Source: Ensifer adhaerens (GTDB lineage: Bacteria > Pseudomonadota > Alphaproteobacteria > Rhizobiales > Rhizobiaceae). Taken from it: a DNA stretch of 64,000 bases. The notes beneath the pieces were generated by a model. The model saw nothing but the letters and a program-made list of their open reading frames with translations, had not been told where the DNA came from and did no database searches. Location: assembly GCA_900215285.1 (NCBI GenBank), contig OCMG01000003.1:682001-746000 (forward strand). The letters run 5' to 3'. The position numbers and the translations under genes are program-made. Of the stretch, positions 3,157-19,410 are shown piece by piece (the first letter of the stretch is position 1; each line of letters begins with the position of its first letter).

Positions 3157-3158
3157 GG

Positions 3159-4127: not shown

Positions 4128-4137
4128 CGTCTTCACC

Positions 4138-5393: not shown

Positions 5394-6664
5394 AGCGACA
5401 TCATCCTCTTCCACATCTTGTAGGCGGCGCGCATGCCGGTTTCGGCGCTGATATGGCCACGGGGCCCCAATGCGCCGGGTTGTTCGTCGATCAGGCCGCG
5501 ATTGACCAGGATCGGCAGGTCCTCGCCGCCCTTGGTGCCGCGCTGCACGCGCTCCCACACTTCCGCATCATCCGGCGAGCCGAAGCCCATCGGGCCCTGG
5601 AAATGCTCATGCAGGCGCATGCGCATCCGGTTGGCTGCTGCCGGCCCACCGTCCATGCCGATCGCGATGTGGCGGATGTCGGTCTGCTCGACATTCACCG
5701 GGGTCAGCACGCGGAAGAAGGCGAGCGAGAAGGAGACGTTCGGGAAGAGATTGAGGTTGAAGCCCGCACCGCCGACGGCACGCACGATCTTCTTGACCTG
5801 ATCTTCCGGATAGCCCTCGTCGCGCAGCTCCTTGGCGAGCGGCAGGAAGCGCTCCTCCATCGCATCGTCGAGATGTTCGTCCAGATCGATGCGCTCGGGG
5901 ATCATCACCATGACGGAATGGCCGTTGCCGAGATCCTCGACATAGCCCTTGCCGGTCTCGAGGAACTTGAAGGCTTCTTCGGCATCGCCATCGAGCGATT
6001 GCATGAAGCTCTTGTGGACGACCGGGAAGTGATAGGCATCGGTCGTGTTTTCGAGCTGAACCTTCCAGTTCATCGGCACGGTGAACTGGTGTTCGCCGAG
6101 AACCTTGACCGGGAAACCGCCGCCCTGCTTCATGAAGAGGTCGATATAGCGGCAGACTTCGGTCCCGAGGAAATCGACAAGCGGCTCGACCTCATCGTTG
6201 AAGGTCGCGAAGATCATGCCGTTATAGCTCTCGGTGCGCAGCCGCTTCAGGCCATGCGCGCCCTTGTCGAAATCTTCGCCATATTGCTCCGGATAGGGCA
6301 GGCCGCGCAGCGACCCATCCAGACCGTAGCCCCAGCCATGATAGGGGCACTGGAAGGACGACGTCTTGCCCTTCTTCACCTCACAGACGGTGGCGGCGCG
6401 GTGGCGACAGCGGTTGACGAGGACGTTCACATCGCCCTTGCGGTCGCGCACCACGATGACGGGTTCGAGCCCGACATTCGACAGTTTGAACGCGCCCTTG
6501 TCGGCGAGTTCGCTGTCATGGGCGACCCAGACCCAGGTGCGCTTGAAGATGCGCTCCATCTCTTCGTTGAAGAGGTCGGCATTCTCGTACATCGAGGTTG
6601 CGACCTGCGACTCCGGCGAATAGAGGGCGTCGAGATCGCTGAATTTCTCTGCGGTATGCAACAT
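5390..6664 (-). CDS. iacC: Rieske non-haem iron ring-hydroxylating dioxygenase, alpha subunit
   Basis: This 424-residue oxygenase large subunit has an N-terminal Rieske domain with ligands C86-x-H88 and C106-x2-H109 (CRH and CPYH). The C-terminal catalytic domain carries the mononuclear iron motif D209-A-Y-H212-x4-H217, so both redox sites are intact. With IacD and the reductase IacF it should form the two-component oxygenase that carries out the catechol-forming step of IAA breakdown. The ATG at 6664 is preceded by GAGAGGAG; an upstream TTG at 6679 is less likely. It follows iacB by 18 bases. Confidence 0.93.
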   Translation of the reverse strand: MLHTAEKFSDLDALYSPESQVATSMYENADLFNEEMERIFKRTWVWVAHDSELADKGAFKLSNVGLEPVIVVRDRKGDVNVLVNRCRHRAATVCEVKKGKTSSFQCPYHGWGYGLDGSLRGLPYPEQYGEDFDKGAHGLKRLRTESYNGMIFATFNDEVEPLVDFLGTEVCRYIDLFMKQGGGFPVKVLGEHQFTVPMNWKVQLENTTDAYHFPVVHKSFMQSLDGDAEEAFKFLETGKGYVEDLGNGHSVMVMIPERIDLDEHLDDAMEERFLPLAKELRDEGYPEDQVKKIVRAVGGAGFNLNLFPNVSFSLAFFRVLTPVNVEQTDIRHIAIGMDGGPAAANRMRMRLHEHFQGPMGFGSPDDAEVWERVQRGTKGGEDLPILVNRGLIDEQPGALGPRGHISAETGMRAAYKMWKRMMSL

Positions 6665-6682
6665 GGTTGCTCCTCTCAAGTC

Positions 6683-7045
6683 TCAAACTTCGGGAATGGT
6701 GAGCGCCCGGCCCATGCGGGCCTCGACGCGCATGTATTTCCACAGGCGGTGATCCTCGTCGTCGACGACGATCGTGCGCAGCAGATTGCAGGCGGCAATC
6801 ACCGACTGGCGGCTCGGGAAATCGCACAGCATGTACCAGGTCCAGGGGAAGGACGGCGAGGTGCCGACCTGCGTCTGGTCGTCGTCGAGCGTCCCGAGAA
6901 CGGTGACGCCTTCGAGTTTCGCAACGCCGGACATGAAGGCCTCGGTTGCTTTCCAGACGCCGCCGATCTTGTTGAAGGGCAGGTCGAAGAAGGAAGGCTG
7001 GACGGCGAGGCAAAGAAGCGTGCGGATGGGTGTCGGTTCTGACAT
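6683..7045 (-). CDS. iacB: Small conserved protein of the IAA-degradation operon
   Basis: This 120-residue protein has no recognisable catalytic motif. It sits exactly where iacB lies in characterised clusters, between iacA and iacC, and has the matching length. Alternating strands and helices (PIRTLLCLAVQPS, WTWYMLCDFPS, HRLWKYMRVEARM) suggest a dimeric alpha/beta-barrel (ferredoxin-like) fold. The cellular role of IacB is not established. An AAAGGA ribosome binding site lies 8 bases before the ATG. It starts 24 bases after the iacA stop. Confidence 0.8.
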   Translation of the reverse strand: MSEPTPIRTLLCLAVQPSFFDLPFNKIGGVWKATEAFMSGVAKLEGVTVLGTLDDDQTQVGTSPSFPWTWYMLCDFPSRQSVIAACNLLRTIVVDDEDHRLWKYMRVEARMGRALTIPEV

Positions 7046-7069
7046 GAAACTATTCCTTTCGTGCAGTGA

Positions 7070-8209
7070 TCACGGGTAGCCGGGCGGGGTCTGCTGGTCG
7101 AAGAGGGCGGCACCTGCCGCCTGCCAGCTGCCGGAATTGATGAAAGCGTGTTGGGCGACGCAGGCCGCGTCGATCATCTTGCGGCCGAGCGGATGGCCGG
7201 TCGCCATGGCCTCCGAACCGCCCATGACGAAGGCGAGACGGGCGGCTTCTGCGCCATCCTGTGCGGCCTTTGAAGCGGCGTGGCGCAGGCGGATGAGGGT
7301 AGGGCGGTCGACTTCGCCATTGGCCTGCATCTGCCGCCAGCCTTCCTCGATGGCGTCGTAGAAGGCCGAGCGAGCGCCCATCAGAATGCCTTCCGCCTTG
7401 GCGAAATCGATCTGGATATAGGCGCGGGCGGCGGGGCTTGGCGCGCCGGTGACGGAGGCGCGGGCGAGTGCGTTGGTATGCACCCAGTCGAGTGCCGAAC
7501 GGGCCGTGCCGAGCGCCACGACAGCGAGCACCTGGGCAGCGAGTGCCATGGCCGGATAGCGAAAGATCAGGTCGTCCTGCTGTGGCTTGCCGCCGCGAAT
7601 GAAGGTCCATTCCTCCGGCACGATCGCCTTGTCGATGACGATGTCATGGCTGCCGGTGGCGCGAAGGCCGACCGTGTCCCAGTTCTCGTCAACACTTGCC
7701 TTGGCGCGCGGCAGGACGGCTGTGCGGGGCAGCGGGCTGTCCTCGCCCTCGATCTTGATGCCGGCGCCGACAATGTCCGCGCCCATGACGCCCGAGCCCC
7801 AGGGCCAGCGGCCGGAAACTTCCAGCCCGCCCTCGACGCGTCTGGCCGGCTGCGGCGGGAACATTGCGCCGGCAAAGACCGTATTCGGATTGGCGCCATA
7901 GATCGCCGAATAGGTTTCCGGCGGCAGCGCCGCCAGATAGGTGGCCGAGACGCCGAAGCTGGCAACCCAGCCGGCAGAGGCGTCGGCGGTGGAAATGTCT
8001 TCGATCAGACGACAGAAATCCTGCGGAGTGAGCTCATCGCCGCCGAAACGCCTCGGCACGAAGGCGCGGTAGACGCCGACGGCCTGAAACTTGGCGACAA
8101 TGTCCTTGGGAATATGGCGCAGCGCCTGGAACTCTTCCGACCGGGCGCTGATTTCGCTTTTCAACGCCTCAAGCGCTGCGGCGGATGCCGGAGGGGCATG
8201 ATAATTCAT
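7070..8209 (-). CDS. iacA: Flavin-dependent indole-3-acetate monooxygenase, acyl-CoA dehydrogenase fold
   Basis: This 379-residue protein has the acyl-CoA dehydrogenase/HpaB-like flavin monooxygenase fold: an N-terminal helical domain with VYRAFVPRRFGGDELTPQDF, a central beta domain (EVSGRWPWGSG, residues about 130-140) and C-terminal helices with LRHAASKAAQDGAEAARLAF. IacA homologues use reduced FAD and oxygen to hydroxylate IAA at position 2 of the indole ring, the first committed step; IacG is the expected source of reduced flavin. The acyl-CoA dehydrogenase catalytic glutamate is not evident, as expected for a monooxygenase relative. It starts 4 bases after the iacH stop with GGAGG inside the end of iacH, so the two are coupled. 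Confidence 0.92.
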   Translation of the reverse strand: MNYHAPPASAAALEALKSEISARSEEFQALRHIPKDIVAKFQAVGVYRAFVPRRFGGDELTPQDFCRLIEDISTADASAGWVASFGVSATYLAALPPETYSAIYGANPNTVFAGAMFPPQPARRVEGGLEVSGRWPWGSGVMGADIVGAGIKIEGEDSPLPRTAVLPRAKASVDENWDTVGLRATGSHDIVIDKAIVPEEWTFIRGGKPQQDDLIFRYPAMALAAQVLAVVALGTARSALDWVHTNALARASVTGAPSPAARAYIQIDFAKAEGILMGARSAFYDAIEEGWRQMQANGEVDRPTLIRLRHAASKAAQDGAEAARLAFVMGGSEAMATGHPLGRKMIDAACVAQHAFINSGSWQAAGAALFDQQTPPGYP

Positions 8210-8213
8210 CGTC

Positions 8214-9395
8214 TTATTCCTCCATCTGGAAAGTCGAATTGGTGTCGATGAGGCGGCGGGCCATCGCGATCAGCCGGGCGTCCGCGCCCTTGGGAGCTAC
8301 AAGCTGGATACCGGAGGGCACGCCGTCCGACGTCAGGGCCGGCAGCACGAGAGCCGGGTGGCCCGAAAGATTGAAGGGCCGCAGATATTGCGTCAGCGTC
8401 AGCACCTTCGCCGGTTCGTTCGCCTCGGAAAGGCGTGGCGGCGGAACCGGCAGGGCAGGCGTCAGCAGCACATCGAAGCGCTCGAACAGCGCATCGACAG
8501 AGGCCGTGAAGCGGGTCCGAATGTCTTCTGCGTCTGCGGTATCGGCGTCGGTCACGCTGCGCGCGCCTTCAAGACGCTTGCGCACGTCGTCGCCCAACAG
8601 TTCAGGACGCTCCATGACTGCGGCATTGGCGAGAAGCGTCTCGCGGGCGATGATCGTCATGCCGGCCTTGAAGGCTGCGCTCATGAGCGAGAGATCGATA
8701 TCCTCGATCAAGCCGTCTCTGCTTGTCTGGACGGCCAGCATCGCTTCGGCCATGCGCGGCTCGATGGAGCCGTCGAGCCGCAGCCGGCCGATCCGGAGCG
8801 GGCCGCCAAAGGTCTCTGCTTGGAAAGCCGGATCGATGGCGGACATGGCGCGCTCGATCATCGCGAGGTTGCGGGCAAAGGGGCCGACACAGTCGAGCGA
8901 GGATTGCGCCGGCAGCGCACCCTTGCGGCTGACGCGGCCAAAGGTCGGCTTGAAGCCGATGACGCCGCAGCAGATGGCGGGCTGGCGGATCGAGCCGCCC
9001 GTGTCGGTACCGATGGCGAAGTCGACGACGCCGGCTGCGACGGCTGCCGCCGAACCCGACGACGAGCCGCCCGCAATACGGTCCGGATGGCGCGGATTGA
9101 CCGGCGTTCCCTCGAACGCGTTGATGCCGGTCATGCCATAGGCGAGCTCATGCATCTTCGTCTTGCCGACGATGCGGCAGCCGGCGGAAAGCAGGTTCGC
9201 CACGACATCGGCATGGGATTTTGCAGGCGCGGCATCGGCGAGCGCCCGGGAGCCGCAGCGCGTCACCATGCCTTCGATATCGAGGCAATCCTTGATCGCA
9301 ACCGTCAGGGCTGGTGTGGCGCCGTTTTGCGCCCCAAGCGAAAATTGCGATACGAAGACGCGATCAGCGTCGTGATGGCTTGCTGCGTGTGACAT
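8214..9395 (-). CDS. iacH: Amidase-signature hydrolase, first gene of the iac operon
   Basis: This 393-residue amidase-signature enzyme retains the Ser-cisSer-Lys triad: K35 in AIKDCLD, S111 in AGGSSSGS and nucleophile S135 in DTGGSIRQPA, with the standard spacings. In iac clusters the amidase gene is not strictly needed for IAA use and has been proposed to release IAA from amide conjugates or act on a side product; its substrate is unproven. I use the ATG at 9395; an upstream TTG at 9425 touches the promoter. It leads the minus-strand iacHABCDEFG operon, about 34 bases from the operator at 9429-9448. Confidence 0.87.
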   Translation of the reverse strand: MSHAASHHDADRVFVSQFSLGAQNGATPALTVAIKDCLDIEGMVTRCGSRALADAAPAKSHADVVANLLSAGCRIVGKTKMHELAYGMTGINAFEGTPVNPRHPDRIAGGSSSGSAAAVAAGVVDFAIGTDTGGSIRQPAICCGVIGFKPTFGRVSRKGALPAQSSLDCVGPFARNLAMIERAMSAIDPAFQAETFGGPLRIGRLRLDGSIEPRMAEAMLAVQTSRDGLIEDIDLSLMSAAFKAGMTIIARETLLANAAVMERPELLGDDVRKRLEGARSVTDADTADAEDIRTRFTASVDALFERFDVLLTPALPVPPPRLSEANEPAKVLTLTQYLRPFNLSGHPALVLPALTSDGVPSGIQLVAPKGADARLIAMARRLIDTNSTFQMEE

Positions 9396-9428: not shown

Positions 9429-9464
9429 TTACGTGAATGTTACCGTAAACCTGCGGACTGTCAA
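9429..9464 (-). promoter_or_regulatory. iacH promoter with 20-bp palindromic operator (9429-9448)
   Basis: On the minus strand a -35 box TTGACA (9464-9459) is followed after 16 bases by TAACAT as the -10 box. The -10 box lies inside the imperfect palindrome TTACGTGAATGTTACCGTAA (9429-9448), in which 14 of 20 positions are symmetric. This layout favours repression by promoter occlusion. Close relatives of the palindrome occur at 9690-9709, 12259-12278 and 14723-14742. The rest of the 397-base iacH-iacI spacer shows no gene. Confidence 0.65.
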
Positions 9465-9689
9465 TTGCCGATCTTGAGAAATGTGAAAATTATTCTTTCA
9501 GATCAATAGCTTGGAACACGAAACGCGGCGCCGTCGCTGGGACGGAACCGTTTCAGACTGCTCTTGATCATGCTCAATTTTCGCACGCCACCACCTCGGC
9601 AGGGGTGACGCGCAGAGACTTGTATAACACGGCTCCCGGCCCGGTATTCTTGCGGAATCCGGGAAAGTCTTTTCCGCTCCGACGTCAAA

Positions 9690-9736
9690 TTACGTGAATA
9701 TTACCGCTTGACGCTTGTCATGTCGAGACTAGGATT
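9690..9736 (+). promoter_or_regulatory. iacI promoter with adjoining copy of the palindrome (9690-9709)
   Basis: The sequence TTACGTGAATATTACCGCTT (9690-9709) matches the iacH operator at 17 of 20 positions and overlaps by two bases a -35 box TTGACG (9708-9713). A TAGGAT -10 box follows after 16 bases (9730-9735). The iacI ATG is at 9793. Having the same motif at both divergent promoters points to joint control of the iacH operon and iacI. Confidence 0.6.
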
Positions 9737-9792
9737 TTGAAGGAAGGCGCGCCCGCTGACGGGCTTGGAGCGCCGCGAACGGGATAATCACC

Positions 9793-10359
9793 ATGACCAC
9801 TGAAACAGATATCGCGGCGCTGGTGCGCCGTATCGAAACGCTGGAAGCGGAAGCCGATATCCGCCGCATCCAGGCGCGCTACATGTTCCTCTGCGATACG
9901 CCGAACCCGGAATTCGGTGTGGCGGACGATGCCGAGCGCATCGAGCTGATCATGCAGCTCTATACGGAAGATGCCGTCTGGGAAGGTGTCGGCGAATATT
10001 ACGACAACCAGTTCGGCCGCGCCGTGGGCGCTGCCGCCATTCGCAAGCACTTCCAGGGCTTCTGGGGCGGCAAGACCGATCCGGCCCTCATCCTCAACTG
10101 CCATTACCTGACGTCGGAACAGATTCACGTCCATGCGAACGGTACGACGGCTGACGGCCAGTGGGTGCATATGCAGCCGTGGCTCTTTTCCGATGGCAAG
10201 GCTCTGCTTCGCTCCTCGCGTCTGAACAACACGTTCCGCAAGGAGCCCGACGGCGTCTGGAAGATCACCCGCACCCGCACCGAAAACGTCTTCGTCGCCC
10301 CACTGCCGGCAACATGGGCCTCGGACTATCCGTCGAAGTCTGTGCTGATGAAGCCTTGA
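9793..10359 (+). CDS. iacI: SnoaL-like (NTF2-fold) protein of IAA degradation
   Basis: This 188-residue protein belongs to the SnoaL-like/NTF2 superfamily. It opens with a helix carrying ADIRRIQARYMFLCD, typical of SnoaL_4-type proteins, followed by YTEDAVWEG and the curved-sheet strands WVHMQPWLFSDGKALLRSSR. IacI is a conserved member of iac clusters with a proposed accessory role in converting an indole intermediate; its exact reaction is not settled. It is transcribed divergently from iacH under its own promoter, carrying the shared palindrome, and ends before a repeat and a bidirectional terminator. Confidence 0.87.
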   Translation: MTTETDIAALVRRIETLEAEADIRRIQARYMFLCDTPNPEFGVADDAERIELIMQLYTEDAVWEGVGEYYDNQFGRAVGAAAIRKHFQGFWGGKTDPALILNCHYLTSEQIHVHANGTTADGQWVHMQPWLFSDGKALLRSSRLNNTFRKEPDGVWKITRTRTENVFVAPLPATWASDYPSKSVLMKP

Positions 10360-10383
10360 AGGCTTAGCTTAGCGCCCAATTCT

Positions 10384-10498
10384 CCGTCATACCGGCCTTG
10401 AGCCGGTATCCAGCCACGGCGCGTCTGCGCCGCGAAAAGAGTCTTTCGCGATCACGGACGTGATCGCACTGGATGCCGGATCAAGTCCGGCATGACGG
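10384..10498. repeat. RIME-like palindromic intergenic repeat
   Basis: Two 30-base arms face each other: 10384-10413 (CCGTCATACCGGCCTTGAGC onward) and 10469-10498, which read in reverse matches with 5 differences. Each arm is itself a small palindrome around CTTGA. Repeats of this form (core CATGCCGGACTTGATCCGGC) are common between genes in Rhizobiales and are described as RIME-type elements. The element separates iacI from the aldehyde dehydrogenase gene. No coding content was seen. Confidence 0.7.
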
Positions 10499-10509
10499 AA
10501 TGAAAAAGA

Positions 10510-10533
10510 AAGGGCCGGTGAAAACCGGCCCTT
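10510..10533. terminator. Bidirectional rho-independent terminator between iacI and the aldehyde dehydrogenase gene
   Basis: A perfect 10-bp stem (AAGGGCCGGT / ACCGGCCCTT) encloses a GAAA loop. It is followed by TCTTGTTT on the plus strand and TTCTTTTTC on the minus strand, so it can end both convergent transcripts. Confidence 0.85.
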
Positions 10534-10558
10534 CTTGTTTCTCGCTTCTTTCCGCCCC

Positions 10559-12067
10559 TCAGCGATAGGCGATGCAGACCGATTTCGTCTCCAGATAATT
10601 CTCCAGCGCGCGGCTGCCGTGTTCGCGGCCGATGCCGGATTGCTTGAAGCCGCCGAAGGGCATGTTCTGGTCGGGAATGTTGTGGCTGTTGACCCAGACC
10701 GTGCCGGCCTGGATTCTCGGCACATAGCGCATGACCTTGTTGAGATCGTTGGTCCAGATGGAGGCACCGAGGCCGTAGCGGGTGTCGTTGGCCTTGGCGA
10801 TCGCCTCGTCCGCATCCTCGAAGGGCGTGATGGTCACGACGGGGCCGAAGACTTCGTCCTGCATGAGCGCCATGTCCTGCCGGACATCGGTGAAGAGTTC
10901 CGGGGCGACGAAGAAGCCCTTGTCCGGTGCGCTGCCGTTGATGACCGGTGTCGCGCCTTGCTCGATGCCGCGGGCAATGCAGGCTTTCACATGCTTCTGA
11001 TGTTTGGCGGAAACCAGCGGGTTGATCTGGTTCATCGGATTGAGGCCCGAGCCGATCGCGAGGCTGCGCGAAACATTGGCAATGACCTCGAGCGCCTTTT
11101 CGTAGATGCCCTTCTGGGCATAGATGCGGGTGGCGGCGCAGCAGGTCTGTCCGGTGTTGAAGAAGACGCCGATGCCGGCTGCTGCACCCAGCAGATCGAG
11201 ATCCATGTCGTCGAACATGATCATCGGTGCCTTGCCGCCGAGTTCCAGCGTCACGCGCTTCATGTCCTTCATCGCCTGTACGCCGATCAGCTTGCCGGTC
11301 TCGGTCGAGCCGGTGAAGGTGATCTTGGCAACGCCCGGATGGGCGACGAGAACAGCACCTGCCGTCTCGCCCATGCCGGTGACGACATTGACGACGCCTT
11401 CCGGGAAGCCGGCTTCGCGGCAGAGTTCAACCAGCCGGATCGAGGTGAGCGGCGTTTCCTCGGCCGGCTTCAGCACCACGGTGCAGCCAGCGGCGAGCGC
11501 CGGCGCGATCTTCCAGGAGGCCATGTTGAGCGGGAAGTTCCACGGCGTGATCGCCGCCACGACGCCGACCGGTTCCTTGCGCGTCTGCGCCTGGTAGCGC
11601 ATGCCCGGCGGAATGGCGATCGAGACGTCGAGTGTCGAGCCCTCGATCTTGGTCGAGCAGCCCGCCATGTAACGGAAATACTCGGCCGATGACTGTACCT
11701 CGATCAGGCGTGAGAGCATGATCGACTTGCCCTGGTTCAGGGTTTCGAGCTGCGCCAGTTCCTCGCCGTTTGCCTCGATGAGATCGGCAAGCTTCAGCAT
11801 CAGCGACTGGCGCTGCACCGGCAGCATCTTCGACCACGGTCCCTCGAAGGCAGCGGCGGCCGCCTTGACCGCGCGGTCTACGTCCGCCGCGTCGCAGGCA
11901 GGAACCTGGGCCAGGACCTCGCCTGTTGCCGGGTTGGCGACCGGATAGGTCGCGCCGGATGCGGCCCCGGAGGATTGGCCGCCAATGAGGACTTTCGGCG
12001 ATTTCAGGAAGTCCGCGACTGTGGCGGAGACCGTTTCCACTGCACTGTCAGGCTGGGCGATATGCAT
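10559..12067 (-). CDS. NAD(P)-dependent aldehyde dehydrogenase, candidate indole-3-acetaldehyde dehydrogenase
   Basis: This 502-residue ALDH-superfamily enzyme has all key residues: N177 in TPWNFP, the general base E275 in TLELGGK and the nucleophile C309 in GQTCCAATR, plus the late NMPFGGFKQSG motif. Its overall pattern is closest to the PuuC/phenylacetaldehyde dehydrogenase/betaine aldehyde dehydrogenase group. Such enzymes oxidise amine-derived aldehydes to acids. Placed between the iac genes and an amine-oxidase-like module, its likely substrate is indole-3-acetaldehyde, giving IAA; this is inference. The ATG at 12067 begins MHIAQPDSA, with a 237-base spacer to the LysR gene. Confidence 0.88.
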   Translation of the reverse strand: MHIAQPDSAVETVSATVADFLKSPKVLIGGQSSGAASGATYPVANPATGEVLAQVPACDAADVDRAVKAAAAAFEGPWSKMLPVQRQSLMLKLADLIEANGEELAQLETLNQGKSIMLSRLIEVQSSAEYFRYMAGCSTKIEGSTLDVSIAIPPGMRYQAQTRKEPVGVVAAITPWNFPLNMASWKIAPALAAGCTVVLKPAEETPLTSIRLVELCREAGFPEGVVNVVTGMGETAGAVLVAHPGVAKITFTGSTETGKLIGVQAMKDMKRVTLELGGKAPMIMFDDMDLDLLGAAAGIGVFFNTGQTCCAATRIYAQKGIYEKALEVIANVSRSLAIGSGLNPMNQINPLVSAKHQKHVKACIARGIEQGATPVINGSAPDKGFFVAPELFTDVRQDMALMQDEVFGPVVTITPFEDADEAIAKANDTRYGLGASIWTNDLNKVMRYVPRIQAGTVWVNSHNIPDQNMPFGGFKQSGIGREHGSRALENYLETKSVCIAYR

Positions 12068-12258
12068 ATTGATCCCTCTACAAGCTCTTGTTTGCTTGAA
12101 ATTTTCGTTGCGGCGGGGGAGGGAGCGAGCCCTCCCATGCTCACATACAGCCTGTCATTGTCTTGATGCGTGATAAATCATGTAAGCTGGAAAACTCTCT
12201 TGCGCTCGCCGCAAAAATTTCAGGCGAGAGGACACGGCGCCCTTGCGTTTCATCAAAA

Positions 12259-12278
12259 TTAGATGAATATTACCGTAA
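12259..12278. promoter_or_regulatory. Third copy of the shared palindrome, between the aldehyde dehydrogenase and LysR genes
   Basis: TTAGATGAATATTACCGTAA matches the iacH site at 17 of 20 positions and lies 26 bases before the LysR start at 12305. It is about 190 bases from the divergent aldehyde dehydrogenase start, so it could influence one or both genes. Its position argues against the longer LysR reading that would begin inside it at 12263. Confidence 0.6.
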
Positions 12279-12304
12279 ATATAAAAAGGGGAGCCCTGAA
12301 TGCC

Positions 12305-13249
12305 ATGGATCGTTTTACCGAACTGGAAGTGTTTACGCGCATTGCCGACGAGGCGAGCCTCACCCGCGCTGCCGATCTTCTCGGCCTTTCCGTTTCCGGC
12401 GTGAGCCGCTGTCTGACCAGTCTTGAAAACCGCCTTGGCGTGCGCCTTGTTCAGCGCACGACACGGCAATTGTCGCTGACGCTGGAGGGCGAGCGTTTTG
12501 CCTGCAAGGCGCGCGAAATCCTCGGCAACCTCAACGCGGCGGAAGAGAGTGTGAGCGCCATCAAGGCCGAACCGCTTGGCACGCTGCGGGTCGGCGCGTC
12601 GCTGGCCTTCTCGCTACTGCATCTCTTGCCGGTGATCCGCCAGTTCAAGATTGACCACCCGGCGGTGCAGGTCGATCTCCAGATCTCCAACCGCTATTGC
12701 GATCTGATCGAAAGCGGTCTCGATCTTGCGATCCGGACCCGCCGCGTCGAGGCGGACAGTTCCGTGACCATGCGAAAGCTCGCGGAAGTGCCGCGCATCC
12801 TGACTGCAACCCCCGCCTATCTCGCAGCCCACGGTGTCCCCCATGAGCCGGAGGCGTTGGAAGGTCACGCCATGTTGCTCTACACACTGTCCGACGACTG
12901 GGAGCATCTCACCTTCCAACGCAACGGCCTTGCAAAGCGGCTGTCCGTTACCGGTGCAATCACCTGCAATGACGGGATGGCGCTGCGCCAGGCGGCGCTG
13001 GACGACCTCGGCATTCTCGTCCAGCCCTCCTATGTGGTCAGGGATGACCTTGCGAGCGGACGTCTGGTTCAGGTTCTTCCGGAGTGGCGACTGAAGTCGC
13101 TGACCATGAATGTCGCCTTTCCGACGCGGACGCATCTTCCTGCCCGTACACGTCTTTTCATCGATGCACTGGTGCGCTACGTCCGCGACAACGATCTCGA
13201 ACATGCCTGGCACGGTGAGCCGGATCTTCCGGCGCGCATATCCGCCTGA
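12305..13249 (+). CDS. LysR-family transcriptional regulator
   Basis: This 314-residue LTTR has an N-terminal winged helix (MDRFTELEVFTRIADEASLT, recognition region SVSGVSRCLTSLENRLGVRL near residues 29-48) and a periplasmic-binding-like effector domain (GTLRVGASLAFSLLHLLPVI near residue 90). It belongs to the CrgA/AaeR-like subgroup rather than the CatR group. It is divergent from the aldehyde dehydrogenase gene, its most likely target. The start at 12305 is preceded by AAGGGGAG. A VOC gene follows after 34 bases on the same strand. Its effector cannot be deduced. Confidence 0.88.
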   Translation: MDRFTELEVFTRIADEASLTRAADLLGLSVSGVSRCLTSLENRLGVRLVQRTTRQLSLTLEGERFACKAREILGNLNAAEESVSAIKAEPLGTLRVGASLAFSLLHLLPVIRQFKIDHPAVQVDLQISNRYCDLIESGLDLAIRTRRVEADSSVTMRKLAEVPRILTATPAYLAAHGVPHEPEALEGHAMLLYTLSDDWEHLTFQRNGLAKRLSVTGAITCNDGMALRQAALDDLGILVQPSYVVRDDLASGRLVQVLPEWRLKSLTMNVAFPTRTHLPARTRLFIDALVRYVRDNDLEHAWHGEPDLPARISA

Positions 13250-13283
13250 ACGCATCCATTCCCTTACAACCAGAGGCTTCTCC

Positions 13284-13667
13284 ATGTCCGCCACCACCGC
13301 CTATGTCGAACATACGGCCTTCTTCGTGCGCGATATCCTTCCGCTCATCGACTTCTTTGCCGAGGTGCTGGGCATGGTGGTCACCAAGCTCGACGGCGAT
13401 CCGAAGGCGCCGAGCCAGGCTTGGCTGCAGGGCGGCGTTCAGCTGATCGCTGATCCGGAATTCGGCGGTCCCGAGGGACGTTTCGGCCATCTCGGCATCG
13501 TCTGCAAGGACGTGCCCGCCGCCATTGCCGCGGCGCGGGCGCGCGGCGCTGTCTCGACCGCGAAGGGCGACCACTGGCTCAAACTGGAAAACGGCATCCT
13601 GCTGGAATTCCTGCCCGAGAAGGGCAACGCGGTGGAGATCATCCGCGGGCTCGATCCACGGATCTGA
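13284..13667 (+). CDS. VOC-superfamily (glyoxalase/dioxygenase fold) protein
   Basis: This 127-residue protein is a single-domain vicinal-oxygen-chelate protein made of two beta-alpha-beta-beta-beta modules. One opens with VEHTAFFVRDILPLIDFFAE, the other with FGHLGIVCKDVPAAIAAARA, and it ends in LLEFLPEK. Potential metal ligands are H8 (EHTAFF), H63 (GHLGI) and the glutamate in LLEFLPE. Its reaction is unknown; members include glyoxalases, epimerases and small dioxygenases. It lies downstream of the LysR gene and ends 3 bases before the convergent AraC-type gene. A TTCTCC-preceded ATG at 13284 is chosen; the longer frame overlaps the LysR gene. Confidence 0.8.
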   Translation: MSATTAYVEHTAFFVRDILPLIDFFAEVLGMVVTKLDGDPKAPSQAWLQGGVQLIADPEFGGPEGRFGHLGIVCKDVPAAIAAARARGAVSTAKGDHWLKLENGILLEFLPEKGNAVEIIRGLDPRI

Positions 13668-13670
13668 GCC

Positions 13671-14696
13671 CTACCTGACGGCGCGCGATGGCGCTTTTCC
13701 GGTCCAGGTCTTGAAGGCCCGGCCGAAGACGGCGCTGTCGGCATAGCCGAGCGTCTGGGCGACCTCGGCAATCGAGGGCTTCTTTCCCGATGAGAGCAGG
13801 TGCTCGGCGAGCTCGCGCCGATGCGCCTCGGTCAGGCTACGCACGCTTGTTCCCTCGTGCTCCAGCTGCCTCTGCAATGTGCGCGCATTGATGCCCAGTT
13901 CCTCGGCCAGAAAACCCACCGTGACCGGGCGACGGCCAACATAGTGCTCGATCAGCGCCGTGACCTTGGAGGTGAGGCTTTGCCCCACCTCGGTTTCGTT
14001 GATCAGATCGGCGATATGCCGCTCCAGGATCGCCGCAAGTTCCTTGTTGTCGCTGCGATAGACGCGGGTGATGTCCTCGGTGCGCATGATCATGCGATTG
14101 CTTGACTGGCGAAACAGCACCGGCGCGCGGAAGATGCGGCGCAGGATATCCGGTTCTGCCGGCGCGTCATGCTCGAAATGCACCTCATCCGGCCTCCATG
14201 CCGAGGAGAAGTTCGAGCGCACCAGCTGACAGCTTGCGGCGAGCGAATATTCCGCGTCCTGTCGACGCGGCCAGATCGACTGATCGGCGATGCGATAGGT
14301 CCACTCGAATGTGTCGCCATCCTCGACGAAGTTGGAACTGGTGGAATTCTGGAGCGAATTCACGAATCTAGAGATGCGATCGAAGGCAACCCTGATCGTC
14401 GGGGAGAGTGAGACAAGCATGCCAAGCGGGCCGATATCGGCCGGCTTGAAGGCCGAACCGAGCTTGGCCCCGAAAAACGGATCGTCCAGAGCCTCCGCCG
14501 CATCCTCAAAGAAGGCGATGAAACGCTGCAGTGGGATCACGGCATAAGGGTCGTCGAGCAACGATTGGGAGAGGCGATGGCGCGCCAGAAGCATGCGGCC
14601 CTTTTCTTGCCGCTTGTCGAACTGATGGATCAGCGGCGTGATGGCTGCCACGCGGATGAAGGCGACATTCCCGGCCCGGCGATGCACTTCCCTCAT
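13671..14696 (-). CDS. AraC-family regulator with arabinose-binding-type N-terminal domain
   Basis: This 341-residue protein has a long ligand-sensing N-terminal domain of the kind seen in OruR/ArgR/GbdR-like regulators (PYAVIPLQRFIAFFEDAAEALDDPFFG, then GPLGMLVSLSPTIRVAF). The C-terminal double helix-turn-helix begins near residue 240 (VGFLAEELGINARTLQRQLE, then PSIAEVAQTLGYADSAVFGR). It is divergent from the permease-led amine operon, which it probably activates. The ATG at 14696 has GGAG 7 bases upstream; a longer start at 14717 lies against the palindrome at 14723-14742. Confidence 0.88.
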   Translation of the reverse strand: MREVHRRAGNVAFIRVAAITPLIHQFDKRQEKGRMLLARHRLSQSLLDDPYAVIPLQRFIAFFEDAAEALDDPFFGAKLGSAFKPADIGPLGMLVSLSPTIRVAFDRISRFVNSLQNSTSSNFVEDGDTFEWTYRIADQSIWPRRQDAEYSLAASCQLVRSNFSSAWRPDEVHFEHDAPAEPDILRRIFRAPVLFRQSSNRMIMRTEDITRVYRSDNKELAAILERHIADLINETEVGQSLTSKVTALIEHYVGRRPVTVGFLAEELGINARTLQRQLEHEGTSVRSLTEAHRRELAEHLLSSGKKPSIAEVAQTLGYADSAVFGRAFKTWTGKAPSRAVR

Positions 14697-14722
14697 GCCA
14701 CGACTCCGGAGCTTCATGAAAA

Positions 14723-14742
14723 TTGCGTGAACGTTGACGTAA
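14723..14742. promoter_or_regulatory. Fourth copy of the shared palindrome, between the AraC and permease genes
   Basis: TTGCGTGAACGTTGACGTAA is the most symmetric copy: 16 of 20 positions pair with their complements. It sits 26 bases from the AraC-type start and about 95 bases before the permease ATG. Together with the sites at 9429, 9690 and 12259 it defines a consensus near TTACGTGAANNTTNACGTAA. Confidence 0.6.
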
Positions 14743-14765
14743 ATTATCAAAATCATGGCACAGAT

Positions 14766-14806
14766 TGCAATATTGCATCGCAAAATTCTTCCCTAGATTT
14801 CGCAAA
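14766..14806 (+). promoter_or_regulatory. Candidate AraC-type binding repeats upstream of the permease operon
   Basis: Two direct TCGCAAA repeats (14778-14784 and 14800-14806) are 22 bases apart, about two helical turns, as is usual for AraC-family activators. A perfect 12-bp palindrome TGCAATATTGCA lies just upstream (14766-14777). The permease ATG is at 14837, with AAAGGGG before it. Confidence 0.45.
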
Positions 14807-14836: not shown

Positions 14837-16282
14837 ATGAAAACTGGTGAGAGTCTCACTGCGCCCAGCGGAAAGCTGGCCAGCAATTCCGTGGGCATCG
14901 CCCACATCGTCTTCTTCGTCGTAGCGGCCGCAGCGCCGTTGACCGCGGTTGTCGGCGCAACGCCGCCGGCCTTCGCATTCGGTAACGGGGCAGGCGTTCC
15001 GGGCGCCTTCGTGCTCGCCGGGTTGCTGTATCTGATCTTCTCCGTTGGCTTCACCGCCATGAGCCGCCATATCAGCGGCGCCGGCGCATTCTACACTTAC
15101 ATCGCCAACGGCATCGGTAAGCCGGCCGGGGTTGCGGGCGCGTTCATAGCGCTTTTGACCTACAGTTCCGTTCAGATCGCCGTCTACGGTCTGATCGGCG
15201 TCTTCACCAACGGCGCGATGGCGGCCCTTGGACTTGATCTGCCTTGGTGGGTATGGTCCTTTGCCTTCCTGGCCATCACCCATCTGGCCGGCCAGCGCAA
15301 CATCACCGTTTCGGGCGTGATCCTCGGCGTGTGCATGCTGGCCGAAATCGCAATCCTCCTTCTGCTTGATATCGGCATCGTGCTTCACGGCGGCGGGCCG
15401 GAAGGCATGACGGTTTCCTCCTTCATGCCCTCGACCGTCTTCACGCCTGGCCTTGGTGTCTCGCTCGTCTTCGTGGTCGGTTCCTTCATCGGCTTCGAGG
15501 CAACCGCCATTTTCGGCGAGGAGGCGCATCGGCCGGAAATCACCATTCCGCGCGCAACCTATATCTCCGTCCTGCTGATCGCGGTCTTCTATGCTTTCTC
15601 GACCTGGGCGATCGTCCAGTATTACGGCCCGTCCAAGATCCAGGAAACGGCAAATGCGGCGCTCAATACCTTCTATTTTGACGCCGCGACCAAGGTTCTC
15701 GGTCCCTGGGCTGCGCACACGATGAACGTGCTGCTCATCACCAGCCTGTTTGCCTGCATCCTCTCCTTCCACAATACGCTGAACCGCTACTTCTTCGCGC
15801 TCGGTCGGGAAGGTCTCGCATTCAAGGTTCTGGGTAAGGTGCATCACATTCACGGTTCGCCCTATATCGCCGGCATGCTGCAATCGGGTATTGCCGCCGC
15901 CGTGCTCGCCGCCTTTGTCATCGCCGGGCAGGATCCGCTGGCTGTCGTCTTCTCCTACATGTCGGCGCTTGCAGTGCTCGGCATCCTGTCGGTTCAGGCC
16001 ATGGTGTCGATCGCCATCGTCATGTTCTTCCGCACGGACAACAAGGGTTACGGCCCCTGGCGGACCACGATCGCGCCGATTATCGCACTTGTAGGTCTTG
16101 CCGGCGCAATCGTCCTAGTCATCTCCAATCTCAGCCTTCTGGCGGGTGCGTCGAACATCGTTATCGACTCCTTCCCTGTCATCGTGGTGCTGGTGGGCGT
16201 GTTCGGGGCCTTCTTCGCGCTCTCGATCAAGAAGGCAAGCCCCGAGCGCTACGCGGCACTCGGCCGGGTCTTCGCCGACTGA
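14837..16282 (+). CDS. APC-superfamily amino acid/amine permease
   Basis: This 481-residue integral membrane protein has about 12 hydrophobic segments and APC signatures: PLTAVVGATPPAFAFGNGAG in the first helix region, the GAFYTYIANGIGKPAGVAGA loop, and FIGFEATAIFGEEAHRPEIT near residues 220-240. Members import amino acids or amines by proton symport across the inner membrane. It is the first gene of a four-gene plus-strand set (permease, OCD-family protein, Rid protein, flavoprotein), so it should take up the substrate that these enzymes oxidise. The substrate is unproven; an aromatic amine or amino acid is the leading idea. Confidence 0.9.
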   Translation: MKTGESLTAPSGKLASNSVGIAHIVFFVVAAAAPLTAVVGATPPAFAFGNGAGVPGAFVLAGLLYLIFSVGFTAMSRHISGAGAFYTYIANGIGKPAGVAGAFIALLTYSSVQIAVYGLIGVFTNGAMAALGLDLPWWVWSFAFLAITHLAGQRNITVSGVILGVCMLAEIAILLLLDIGIVLHGGGPEGMTVSSFMPSTVFTPGLGVSLVFVVGSFIGFEATAIFGEEAHRPEITIPRATYISVLLIAVFYAFSTWAIVQYYGPSKIQETANAALNTFYFDAATKVLGPWAAHTMNVLLITSLFACILSFHNTLNRYFFALGREGLAFKVLGKVHHIHGSPYIAGMLQSGIAAAVLAAFVIAGQDPLAVVFSYMSALAVLGILSVQAMVSIAIVMFFRTDNKGYGPWRTTIAPIIALVGLAGAIVLVISNLSLLAGASNIVIDSFPVIVVLVGVFGAFFALSIKKASPERYAALGRVFAD

Positions 16283-16414
16283 CCTGAGAAATTGGGCATG
16301 GCGTCGAGCCGTGCCCCCACACCCGAAAACTGAAGCATCCACGCAAACCCGCCGGGCCGCGACAAGCGCTCCCGAGCAGGCCAGCGAAGCCTTACCCGAA
16401 AGGAAGCTAGATCC

Positions 16415-17554
16415 ATGATCGAGAACACGAAAATCGACTTCATCTACCTGTCCGAGCAGGACATGATCCGCGCCGGCGTGACCGAAATGCCGGCCTGCGT
16501 GGACGCGATGGAAGAAATGTTCGGCCTGCTCTACCACGGCGACTACCGCATGGCGGGCCCCAACAGCGACAGCCATGGCGCGGCCATCAGCTTTCCGGAA
16601 AACTCGCCTTTCCCGGACATGCCGAAGCCGACCGCTGACCGCCGCTTCATGGCCATGCCCGCCTATCTCGGCGGCCGTTTCCGCACCGCCGGCATGAAGT
16701 GGTATGGTTCCAACATCGAGAACCGCGAAAAGGGCCTGCCGCGCTCGATCCTGATGTTCTGCCTGAACGATGCCGATACCGGCGCGCCGCTTGCCTTCAT
16801 GTCGGCGAACCTGCTTTCCGCCTACCGCACCGGCGCGATCCCCGGCGTCGGCGCCCGCCATCTGGCGCGCAAGGATTCCCGCGTCGTCGGCATCCTCGGT
16901 CCGGGCGTCATGGCCAAGACAACGCTTGCCGCCTTCATCGCGGCCTGCCCGAATATCGATACGGTCAAGGTCAAGGGTCGCGGCCAGAAGAGCCTCGACA
17001 GCTTCCTGTCATGGCTGAAGGAAACCTATCCGCAGGTAACGAAGGTCGAGCTGGTCGACACGATCGAGGACGTGGTGCGTAACTCGGATCTCGTGACTTA
17101 TTGCAATTCCGGCGCAGTCGGCGACCCCTCCACCTATCCGATCGTGAAGCGCGAATGGGTGAGCCCCGGCACGTTCCTGGCCATGCCGGCGCTCTGCAAC
17201 ATCGATGAGGGCATGGAAAGCCCGGACATCCGCAAGGTTGTCGACAATACCGGCCTCTACGACGCATGGTTCCACGAACTGCCGAAGCCCGCGCATGTGC
17301 ATGTGCCGATCATCGGCGTGAAGTTCCTGGATATGATCGCCGAAGGCAGGATGAGCCGCGACCAGCTCGAAGATATCGGCAAGATCGTTGCTGGCGATGC
17401 ACCCGGCCGCAAGAACGACGACGAGATCATCATCATGTCGGTCGGCGGCATGCCGGTAGAAGATGTTGCCTGGGGCACGATCGTCTACCGCAACGCCATC
17501 GAGCGCGGCATCGGCGTCAAGCTCAACCTCTGGGACGTTCCCGTTCTGCGCTGA
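16415..17554 (+). CDS. Ornithine cyclodeaminase/mu-crystallin-family protein
   Basis: This 379-residue protein has the OCD fold: an N-terminal substrate domain (MKWYGSNIENREKGLPRSIL near residue 93) and a Rossmann domain with GILGPGVMAKTTLAAF near residues 155-170. The family includes ornithine cyclodeaminase, alanine dehydrogenase and imine reductases. I recall close relatives being named tyramine oxidase subunit B in databases, which I could not check. It follows the permease after 132 bases with AAGGAAGCTAG before the ATG. Since it sits with a Rid protein and a flavoprotein oxidase, handling of an imine or amine is likely. The exact reaction is open. Confidence 0.85.
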   Translation: MIENTKIDFIYLSEQDMIRAGVTEMPACVDAMEEMFGLLYHGDYRMAGPNSDSHGAAISFPENSPFPDMPKPTADRRFMAMPAYLGGRFRTAGMKWYGSNIENREKGLPRSILMFCLNDADTGAPLAFMSANLLSAYRTGAIPGVGARHLARKDSRVVGILGPGVMAKTTLAAFIAACPNIDTVKVKGRGQKSLDSFLSWLKETYPQVTKVELVDTIEDVVRNSDLVTYCNSGAVGDPSTYPIVKREWVSPGTFLAMPALCNIDEGMESPDIRKVVDNTGLYDAWFHELPKPAHVHVPIIGVKFLDMIAEGRMSRDQLEDIGKIVAGDAPGRKNDDEIIIMSVGGMPVEDVAWGTIVYRNAIERGIGVKLNLWDVPVLR

Positions 17555-17580
17555 CCCGATCCCCTCGGGAGCGCCAACTC

Positions 17581-17622
17581 GGTCGGGCCGCGAACCCTGT
17601 CGCGCCCGGCCCCTCTCTTTTT
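17581..17622 (+). terminator. GC-rich hairpin with T-run between the OCD-family and Rid genes
   Basis: The sequence GGTCGGGCCGCG pairs with CGCGCCCGGCCC across a short loop and is followed by CTCTCTTTTT. It resembles a rho-independent terminator placed inside the gene set, so it may lower, rather than stop, transcription of the Rid and flavoprotein genes. Confidence 0.55.
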
Positions 17623-17646
17623 CAATGTCAGAAGCAAGGAGCGATC

Positions 17647-18069
17647 ATGACCAAGATCGTCAAGATCAAGACCGGTTCCAAATTCGAGGACCATGGCAGC
17701 TATTCCCGCATCGTGGCCGTCGACAACTGGATTTTCGTGTCCAACACCGCAGGCCGCAATCCGGAGACCAAGGAAATCCCGGAGGATGTGGGCGCTCAGA
17801 CGCATCAGGTCTTCGCCAATATCGAACGCGCGCTGGCCGCCGTTGGCGCAAGCCTTGCCGATGTCGTCATGTCCCGCGTCTTCATCCAGGAGCCGAAGGA
17901 TACCGAAACCGTCATGACCATCGTGGGCGAGAAGTTCCGCGGCACGGATCCGGCTTCCACGGTGACATGCCCACCGCTCGGCTCGACTGTCTACAAGGTC
18001 GAGATCGAAGTGACGGCCTATCGTGGCGCCTCCACCGCCGAGATCGAAAAGCGCACCATTTCCCTTTGA
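17647..18069 (+). CDS. Rid-family protein (RidA/YjgF-like) lacking the catalytic arginine
   Basis: This 140-residue chorismate-mutase-like-fold protein shows the family features VDNWIFVSNTAGRNPETKEI, the FANIERALAAVGASLADVV helix and the closing strand VEIEVTAYRG. RidA enzymes hydrolyse reactive imines and enamines made by amine-oxidising enzymes. The arginine that lies just after PA in E. coli RidA (R105) is replaced here by serine (PASTVT), placing this protein with the Rid4-Rid7 type groups that may not deaminate imines. AAGGAG lies 7 bases before the ATG. It directly precedes the flavoprotein gene by 45 bases. Confidence 0.88.
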   Translation: MTKIVKIKTGSKFEDHGSYSRIVAVDNWIFVSNTAGRNPETKEIPEDVGAQTHQVFANIERALAAVGASLADVVMSRVFIQEPKDTETVMTIVGEKFRGTDPASTVTCPPLGSTVYKVEIEVTAYRGASTAEIEKRTISL

Positions 18070-18114
18070 CGGCGGGCCTTGCCCGCCACCCTGCCTAACC
18101 CAAGGACGATTGCC

Positions 18115-19410
18115 ATGGCACCCGCAATTACACCGGTTCAGATCTCTCCCGATTTCCCGAAAGAAACCACCGTCGTCGTGATCGGCGCCGGCATTGTCGG
18201 GCTAACGGCGGCACTGACGCTGGCCGAACGCGGCATCCCGGTCGTGGTGCTGGAAAAGGGCCGGGTGGCGGGCGAACAGTCCTCGCGCAATCTCGGCTGG
18301 TGCCGCAAGATGGGACGCTCGGCGCCTGACGTACGGATGGCGGTTGCCGCCGACCAGCTCTGGGCCGAAATGCCGCAGCGCGTCGGCGTCGATGTCGGCT
18401 ATAGACAGGCCGGCATCATGTATCTCGCCCGCACCGAGGCGGAGATGGAGATGCATCGCGGCTGGATGAAGTCTGTGAGCGACATGTCGCTCGATTCGAA
18501 ACTGCTCAGCGCCAGCGAAATCGACGGGCTGGTTCCCGGTGGCAAGGGTCAATGGGCGGGCGGCATCTTCACCGCCTCCGACGGTCGCGCCGAACCGACA
18601 CTGGCCCCCAGTGCCATTGCCAATGCCGCCGCCCGCCTCGGCGTGAAGATCGTCGAGAACTGCGCCGTCCGCACGCTGACGCGCACGGGCGGGAAGGTGA
18701 CCGGCGTCGTCACCGAGCGCGGCGAAATCCGCTGCGATCAGGTTCTTCTCGCTGCCGGTCTCTGGTCGCGCAAGTTCCTCGCCAATCTTGGTATCTCCCT
18801 GCCGACGCTGCCGCTCGTCTCCTCCGTCATGCGCACCGCGCCGATGGACGGGCCGACCGAGATTGCGGTGGGCGGCCCCGACTTCTCCTTCCGCAAGCGG
18901 AGCGATGGCGGCTATACAGTGACGCAGCGCGGCGCGCTCGGCGCGCCTCTCATGCTCGACCATCTGCTGATCGGCATGCGCTACCTGCACATGCTGCGCC
19001 ACCAGCGCAGCCTGCTGCGTATCAACCTCGGCAAGGATTTTCTCAATGATATCCGCCTGCCGCGCCGCTGGGGGCCGAAAAGCGTTTCGCCGTTCGAGCG
19101 CATCAGGACGATGGACCCACAGGCCGACGAAGGCATCAATGCCGAGGCGATCCGCAATCTTGTCGCCGCCTGGCCGGTCTTCAAGGACATGGTGATCGAA
19201 GAGGTCTGGGCCGGCATGATGGACATCACGCCGGATTCGCTGCCCGCCATCGAGCGAATCGACAGCATTCCGGACTTCACCATTGCCACCGGCTTTTCCG
19301 GCCACGGCTTCGGCACCGGGCCGGCGGCCGGTCAGCTCGCGGCCGATCTGGTGACGGATGCGCCGCCGATCGTCGATCCGACGCCCTACAAGCTCAGGCG
19401 TTTCAGCTGA
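18115..19410 (+). CDS. FAD-dependent amine/D-amino-acid-oxidase-family oxidoreductase
   Basis: This 431-residue DAO-superfamily flavoprotein has the ADP-binding motif G24-x-G26-x2-G29 (VIGAGIVGLTAAL), an SSRNLGWCRK stretch near residues 60-70, and a C-terminal FAD-contact motif GFSGHGFGTGPAAG. Such enzymes oxidise C-N bonds of amines or amino acids, giving an imine that hydrolyses to an aldehyde or ketone. With the permease, OCD-family and Rid proteins it forms a probable amine-oxidation module. An aldehyde product would suit the nearby aldehyde dehydrogenase. AAGGA precedes the ATG at 18115. The gene ends just before the insertion-sequence wreck but appears complete. Confidence 0.87.
   Translation: MAPAITPVQISPDFPKETTVVVIGAGIVGLTAALTLAERGIPVVVLEKGRVAGEQSSRNLGWCRKMGRSAPDVRMAVAADQLWAEMPQRVGVDVGYRQAGIMYLARTEAEMEMHRGWMKSVSDMSLDSKLLSASEIDGLVPGGKGQWAGGIFTASDGRAEPTLAPSAIANAAARLGVKIVENCAVRTLTRTGGKVTGVVTERGEIRCDQVLLAAGLWSRKFLANLGISLPTLPLVSSVMRTAPMDGPTEIAVGGPDFSFRKRSDGGYTVTQRGALGAPLMLDHLLIGMRYLHMLRHQRSLLRINLGKDFLNDIRLPRRWGPKSVSPFERIRTMDPQADEGINAEAIRNLVAAWPVFKDMVIEEVWAGMMDITPDSLPAIERIDSIPDFTIATGFSGHGFGTGPAAGQLAADLVTDAPPIVDPTPYKLRRFS

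Follow-up and report, generated by a model that had tools for sequence, protein, structure and literature searches.

A 20 bp palindrome recurs in a 64 kb stretch of Ensifer adhaerens DNA (the window; the host genome has 5.19 Mb) in front of four transcription units in and around the iac operon for indole-3-acetate catabolism, and this raises the question of which protein binds it and how far the control exerted by that protein extends. The copies precede iacH, iacI, a LysR-family gene and a pair formed by an AraC-family gene and a permease gene. Judged from sequence comparison, the palindrome appears to be a real, conserved operator, most likely that of the MarR-family auxin sensor IacR encoded in the same window (2132-2614, plus strand), and may mark a small auxin regulon with two other regulators inside.

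A preliminary description of this stretch had placed the four copies at 9429-9448 (minus strand), 9690-9709 (plus), 12259-12278 (plus) and 14723-14742 (minus), and all of them were found there, in front of the genes named above; it had given two to five changes per site, whereas the count against the core TTACGTGAATATTACCGTAA is one, three, two and five, respectively. With up to three mismatches to this core the window contains three matches and 100 shuffled versions of it none, and the only matches in the whole genome are 9429, 9690 and 12259 (control 0). Site 14723, which is five changes away from the core, is found with a degenerate pattern at one mismatch. This pattern occurs at three places genome-wide with up to one mismatch, every one of them local, and at nine places with up to two, four of which are the sites already described (reversed control, 2). 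A wide genome regulon was considered and dropped, with five non-local places left at two mismatches, against two in the control. In seven relatives, matches with up to one mismatch fall within the iac loci, with one further place each in G247 and G117; the control matches at this threshold were one each in G117 and G014, and G245 has none.

The conservation of the palindrome was measured with three matrices. The first, built from 12 Rhizobiaceae sites, detected it in all 32 iacH-iacI spacers not used for training (a set labelled as outside the Rhizobiaceae, although it includes Shinella, L195, of that family, and Martelella, L189), compared with 18 of 3200 shuffled spacers, and gave a single match in 228,969 coding bases. 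The second, of 26 sites, underlies the counts given below for iacI, the lysR promoters, minimal loci, second clusters and loci with distant IacR; its training sites were picked with a matrix from the four sites of the window, and one of them comes from a Rhizobium metagenome-assembled genome (MAG; L075) despite the label of non-Rhizobiaceae. The third, made to remove this dependence on a seed, came from a motif search without window seed in 27 non-Rhizobiaceae iacH-iacI spacers (Rhizobiaceae, L075, Martelella and Shinella excluded), which converged on TTACGGTAATATTACCGCAT, the same palindrome. This de novo matrix assigns 32.7 bits to site 9690, 28.1 to 9429, 25.2 to 12259, 10.0 to a candidate at 1841, 7.0 to 14723 and 4.9 to a candidate at 12166. 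Among 40 Markov sequences of 64 kb the largest score was 12.5 bits and the mean maximum 4.9, so that the first three sites stand alone, and 14723, 1841 and 12166 need the backing of conservation in relatives.

Such conservation was seen to different degrees. A site occupies the place of 14723 in eight Rhizobiaceae loci (L025, L026, L027, L028, L030, L035, L062 and L100). Two probable sites come in addition to the four of the preliminary description. Candidate operator 5 (1841-1860, minus strand; 13.5 bits with the 26-site matrix), in the spacer between iacR and an ABC-transporter gene, is identical in L025, weaker in L028-L030 and absent in L026. The candidate variant site at 12166-12185 (plus strand; 8.7 bits with the 26-site matrix), of the TTnCGTGATAAATCACGTAA type with the core GATAAATC, lies about 120 bases upstream of lysR, and a match of this type stands at a similar place in 21 of 26 lysR rows. 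Many alphaproteobacterial iacH-iacI spacers carry two sites, the second often ending in CCGCTT; a fixed spacing between the two was considered and rejected, and since the spacing varies between loci, no looping is claimed. Far from the locus, at 43637-43656, a partial match, AAGCGGTAATATTCCGGATT, lies in long open frames (6.5 bits with the 26-site matrix, 6.1 with the de novo one) and is probably due to chance.

The position of the sites on the putative promoters suggests how they might work. The iacG-F-E-D-C-B-A-H operon (2629-9395, minus strand) was recognised by its open reading frames, protein families and conserved gene order; the single letters after iac follow the preliminary description and general usage, and are taken here as presumed. 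Its putative promoter, TTGACA-16-TAACAT, has the -10 box (TAACAT, 9442-9437) inside predicted operator 1 (9429), in agreement with the earlier observation. The iacH start is probably ATG 9395 and not TTG 9425, with 33 bases between it and the site, as in an annotated Martelella relative. Predicted operator 2 (9690) precedes the SnoaL-like gene iacI (9793-10359, plus strand; open reading frame and family), and its 3' end, CCGCTT, was rightly said to abut the -35 box: the putative TTGACG (9708-9713) shares the last two bases of the site, with a -10 box, TAGGAT, at 9730-9735. The CCGCTT end recurs in many relatives, and its running into the -35 box would explain the asymmetry of this site. Predicted operator 3 (12259) precedes the lysR start codon (ATG 12305) by 26 bases, and here the promoter prediction is weak. 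Predicted operator 4 (14723) stands 26 bases before the likely araC start (14696) and 94 before that of the permease gene, and a putative araC -10 box (GATAAT, 14748-14743) stands directly before it. At 1841, the putative -10 box (TAGCAT, 1868-1863) of an ABC-transporter solute-binding protein gene (455-1690, minus strand; Peripla_BP_6), a possible target of this candidate, lies just upstream of the site. All these elements are consensus matches, not mapped starts.

The predicted operators are thus even-spaced inverted repeats overlapping putative promoter elements of their targets, as in MarR-type operators, with the elements weak at lysR. As they cover or abut such elements at iacH, iacI, araC and the ABC-transporter gene, their positions suit a blocking repressor. 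It might be argued that IacR is an activator or dual regulator at iacI and a repressor elsewhere: the centre of the iacI site falls some 42-44 bases before the presumed start, the site and the -35 box have bases in common, the CCGCTT end is widely retained, and MarR activators and dual regulators exist according to PMC9613470. The same paper describes the IacR of Enterobacter soli as a repressor, and the -35 overlap fits repression equally well. We regard activation as unlikely; since it overlaps with the preferred explanation, the likelihoods of the two are not meant to add up.

Turning to the protein, the product of iacR in the window carries two MarR-family domains (PF12802, E 2.3e-10; PF01047, E 1.2e-08), and its gene is linked to the iac genes. 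Comparison with solved structures gave 7KUA (E 2.3e-35), 7L19 (1.5e-27) and 7L1I (2.2e-19) as the nearest, ahead of 7KFO (IadR, 5.9e-07). The first three are the IacR proteins of Pseudomonas putida, E. soli and Acinetobacter baumannii; their codes are named in PMC11630574, and they are taken to be the structures of PMC9613470. Tyr37 of the window protein would align without gaps to the carboxylate-contacting Tyr44 of P. putida IacR if the crystal tag has 24 residues, an offset deduced from 7kki versus 7kfo.

The distribution of the site follows that of IacR. Of 88 loci encoding a relative of IacI, the best 80 were compared, and in 50 of these 80 the 650 bp upstream of iacI contain a site of at least 12 bits. 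Every one of the 50 comes from a genome with an IacR match of at least 52% identity (48, plus L052 and L040, the latter inside its own locus); a match at E <= 1e-20 was present in 48 of 49 genomes, each at least 52% identical, the exception being Robbsia (L045). The 30 further loci include 15 whose genomes gave no IacR match at 1e-15. With Robbsia this makes 16 loci from IacR-negative genomes, and no site of at least 12 bits was found before iacI in any of them, the best promoter score there being 7.0 bits. Fourteen other site-less loci belong to IacR-positive genomes, ten of them with a distant IacR of 36-43% (L059, L061, L071, L073, L083, L084, L087, L096, L097 and L098). Of the three candidate binders listed in the preliminary description, IacR is the one that fits.

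A similar picture emerged from 247 genomes of the window's own family, taken as Rhizobiaceae from the named relatives. Only six of them encode IacR: G000, G014, G187, G237 and G064, all with sites at up to three mismatches, and G245 with none. Two or more such sites were found in four genomes, all IacR-positive, while seven IacR-negative genomes have single matches and reversed-pattern controls yield more. G064 (L175) has two sites (28.1 and 19.4 bits) between iacA and iacR and gave no match to lysR, araC, iacH or iacI within 20 kb, and in Neorhizobium (L191) sites likewise accompany a reduced iac set that includes iacR, with no lysR or araC match.

More distant IacR proteins accompany a modified palindrome. 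Beside IacRs of 43-53% identity, a TTACTTGAA-like half-site with the same spacing stands before iacH or iacA (L046, L059, L073, L192, L197, L200, L214, L217 and L087); it replaces TTACGTGAA or TTACGGTAA in Gammaproteobacteria, a Novosphingobium, a Rhodospirillum MAG and a Hylemonella MAG. When sites were chosen with the two varying half-site positions masked, base 5 of the half-site was G 74 times, A 19 times and T once at the 47 loci whose IacR has Asn in the recognition helix, compared with T 17, A 5, G 3 and C 1 at the 13 loci with Ser, Pro or Thr; in these rows L087 and L232 are one locus, L199, L234 and L235 are doubtful, and near copies were retained. The variant half-site thus appears to go with Asn versus Ser or Pro in the recognition helix, which supports IacR as the binder, though essentially as one evolutionary event. 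In Paracoccus litorisediminis (L070, 1415-3000) two iacR-like genes stand in tandem around a glyoxalase-like gene, and the product of one carries Ser in the recognition helix in place of the Asn of its clade.

Several observations weigh against IacR as the binder or limit the force of these counts. The link between Asn and base 5 reduces, on a tree of 80 IacR-like proteins, to one change plus one reversal in the tandem paralogue of L070, and as this is essentially one event, the Fisher value does not count as an independent test. An IacR of at least 53% identity is encoded in the genomes of four of the 30 loci that lack an iacI site (L046, L051, L056 and L067). Of these, L046 (53%) has a Ser-type helix and a variant site at iacA, and the other three represent second clusters. 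In the genomes of L051 and L067 the palindrome is present at the main iac operon (L230, 30.9 bits; L229, 26.5 bits), and L056 shares its genome with L057, which has the site. In G245 (L174, 9028-9507), a genome of the same genus, an 84% IacR has neither iac genes beside it nor the palindrome, and might be read as a displaced or repurposed regulator. The distant iac loci L212 and L199, which have IacR, show no convincing site, and the matches in L234-L236 are weak. In L202, where an IacR-like protein of 51% identity occurs with no iac genes, no site was found nearby, and distant iacR-like genes located outside iac operons (L198, L213, L215, L216, L218, L231 and L233) have none or scattered weak ones. 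Site 14723 is weak when taken alone with the de novo matrix. Finally, the loci were chosen by their shared IacI, so that the co-occurrence could reflect iac genes, IacR and site moving together as one travelling cluster. Beside these cases, a plasmid of Sagittula stellata (L196) carries the gene of an IacR-like MarR protein (55%) adjoining an araC gene and the paa genes for phenylacetate; the palindromes there are weaker.

A rival proposal is that an unlinked regulator binds the palindrome and IacR merely shares the gene cluster. Co-occurrence alone cannot tell a binder from a cluster member, and in some genomes IacR lies away from the iac operon. Three such loci (L027, L035 and L062) have IacR on another contig and nevertheless keep the site; an unlinked protein would need the same distribution as the site, occurring with it everywhere and nowhere else, and the half-site differs with the IacR recognition helix, even if once on the tree. 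We consider this proposal improbable.

The LysR-family regulator (12305-13249, plus strand; nearest model YafC, below its cut-off) had also been put forward as a binder, controlling itself and its neighbours. Site 12259 adjoins its gene, and matches of at least 12 bits occur in 23 of 29 lysR promoters including that of the window, or 22 of 26 distinct ones; the 29 rows include the window and three duplicates (L127/L180, L128/L181 and L034/L187), and in L104 and L179 the match is the upstream variant, not a site of the 12259 type. A LysR match at E <= 1e-60 was present in 24 of 49 genomes (the genome of L040 was outside this set), in a search that scored up to 46 first-look candidates per genome and counted L041 as negative although it holds lysR fragments. 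The palindrome is kept before iacI in 24 of 25 loci from genomes without such a match, and LysR is therefore dispensable for it. The lysR promoters moreover carry a different box, TTGC-N7-GCAA, found at up to one mismatch in 28 of 29 (25 of 26 distinct promoters, compared with 371 of 5800 shuffled ones), among them four distinct promoters without the palindrome (L177, L180, L181 and L188). Sites of LysR proteins typically have the form T-N11-A, which the even-centred 20 bp palindrome does not have. In the window this box, outside the palindrome family, stands at 12200-12214 (plus strand), and is probably the binding site of the local LysR itself. LysR as the binder was therefore rejected as very improbable; AraC as a common binder was likewise set aside, araC matches being missing from many loci that have the site. 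Although palindromic repeats are common in bacteria, a dispersed repeat or chance resemblance is scarcely conceivable and was ruled out by the genome scan, which shows no genome-wide repeat but only the three local copies at up to three mismatches (the preliminary description had noted that no annotated repeat explains the recurrence), by the spacer conservation and by the de novo matrix.

With IacR as the most likely binder, it may be asked which genes belong to its regulon. Sites of at least 10 bits within 320 bp upstream were counted gene by gene, with duplicate loci of one genome included and the window excluded: lysR has them in 23 of 30 cases, araC in 9 of 18, the permease gene in 9 of 19, the aldehyde dehydrogenase gene in 6 of 34 and iacR in 18 of 46, and none were found at this threshold and distance before ocd (0 of 17) or dao (0 of 13). 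On these counts, the iac site appears to be the core of the regulon, with lysR added widely and the araC/permease site added mainly in Rhizobiaceae. At iacR itself, the candidate at 1841 lies 271 bases upstream and nearer to the ABC-transporter promoter. The preliminary description had united iac, aldehyde dehydrogenase and amine genes in one regulon, and a single palindrome does mark a local regulon, but the direct link to the aldehyde dehydrogenase is weak. This gene (10559-12067, minus strand), whose product is nearest to the phenylacetaldehyde dehydrogenase StyD but under its cut-off (694.7 of 850 bits), starts 191 bases from site 12259, which lies close to lysR; together with the 6 of 34, this makes a path from IacR to LysR to the aldehyde dehydrogenase more likely, and the enzyme is probably under indirect control through LysR.

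The link to the amine genes holds in the eight Rhizobiaceae loci mentioned above but is lineage-specific, as the count for araC indicates. The AraC-family regulator (13671-14696, minus strand; nearest model QhpR, below its cut-off) is followed by a set of genes (14837-19410, plus strand) for an amino-acid-type permease, tyramine oxidase subunit B (NF004848; 719.6 bits, cut-off 362), a Rid protein and a flavin adenine dinucleotide-dependent oxidoreductase, and this set also adjoins iacR in Gemmobacter. Between araC and the permease gene, at 14765-14784, overlapping TTGCAATATTGCA and TTGCATCGCAA palindromes might be a site of the AraC regulator. Right after the amine gene set a transposase fragment (DDE_Tnp_IS240; 19511-20056) was found, and the set may have an insertion-element border. 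In Halomonas (L061, 17561-17580), TTGCATGAATATTCATGTAT stands beside an AraC gene and an amine-oxidase set, away from the iac genes of that genome. Palindrome-like copies also occur at TRAP-transporter genes in two Rhodobacterales loci (L076, 10831; L081, 2931) and in Martelella (L189, 8870), where the copy overlaps the annotated start of a solute-binding gene next to iacR; this is possibly a branch for auxin uptake.

Taken together, the palindrome is very probably the operator of IacR, acting as a MarR-type repressor that senses indole-3-acetic acid and works through the following steps. In the absence of auxin, an IacR dimer on the sites would block the promoters of the iacHABCDEFG operon, iacI, lysR and the araC/permease pair, and possibly also the spacer between the ABC-transporter gene and iacR. 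Auxin-bound IacR would leave the DNA and allow expression of the auxin-degrading genes, lysR and araC, after which LysR and AraC would probably switch on the aldehyde dehydrogenase and the amine-oxidising set. These enzymes may convert an aromatic amine, perhaps tryptamine or a similar compound, to an aldehyde and then to an aryl acetate such as indole-3-acetate. A broader and more tentative picture, possible rather than probable as a whole, is that in Rhizobiaceae IacR heads a two-tier circuit, repressing auxin breakdown together with lysR and araC, which in turn would command the feeder steps from amine via aldehyde to auxin, so that auxin would open its own supply route. The iac operator would then be old; several groups of Alphaproteobacteria would have gained lysR in addition, and a Rhizobiaceae subgroup alone the amine branch, with one position of the recognition helix (Asn versus Ser or Pro) setting base 5 of the half-site.

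Parts of this scheme have counterparts in known systems. Two papers, PMC8242030 and PMC9711524, state that they use an IacR operator identified before, and cite work on A. baumannii for it (Shu et al. 2015, Antonie van Leeuwenhoek 107:1237); there, as proposed here, a MarR-type IacR regulates the iac locus in response to auxin. In contrast to the window, the plasmid iac locus of Acinetobacter (L199, IacR 36%) shows no convincing palindrome match. PMC9613470 reports auxin binding by the IacR proteins of P. putida, E. soli and A. baumannii. It also describes a relative, IadR (MarR_73) of Variovorax paradoxus CL14, which keeps its locus repressed as long as no auxin is supplied; IadR binds a 24 bp site upstream of iadA, and deletion of iadR derepresses part of the locus. 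IadR resembles the system proposed here as an auxin-binding MarR repressor with a site before a degradation operon, but it belongs to the iad and not the iac group, it is far more distant from the window IacR than the P. putida protein is (E values for 7KFO and 7KUA above), and one site is reported for it there, unlike the several promoters of the window.

Further parallels are P. putida 1290 and Enterobacter soli LF7, in which a related MarR sensor accompanies iac genes. An IacR from Klebsiella that closely matches the E. soli structure (7L19, E 9.5e-54) stands beside the TTACTTGAA variant (L197); the Klebsiella relatives differ from the window in half-site base 5 and the recognition-helix residue, and no matching lysR, araC or amine branch was found in the Klebsiella stretches fetched. 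Paraburkholderia phytofirmans PsJN, according to PMC9613470, likewise has LysR and iac genes together, but there LysR is said to stand in place of MarR, whereas in the window it appears as a target of IacR. In open-licence literature no report was found of this palindrome or of IacR control of lysR, araC or amine genes; three consensus strings of the palindrome were not found there, and the wording 'IacR operator' appeared in two yeast-circuit papers. The IacR operator as such is already cited for Acinetobacter; the cascade predicted here is a specific one.

A sequence-level IacR operator across many Alphaproteobacteria, with a variant beyond them, would make candidate auxin-responsive genes findable from sequence, and it predicts that further genes answer to plant auxin, namely those for transporters, LysR, AraC and amine oxidation. 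The relation between the helix residue and the half-site base, which would be a small readable specificity code if true, might be tried out in IacR-based auxin biosensors. For E. adhaerens and its relatives, the proposed circuit would mean, if true, that auxin breakdown and a pathway feeding it are placed under one switch.

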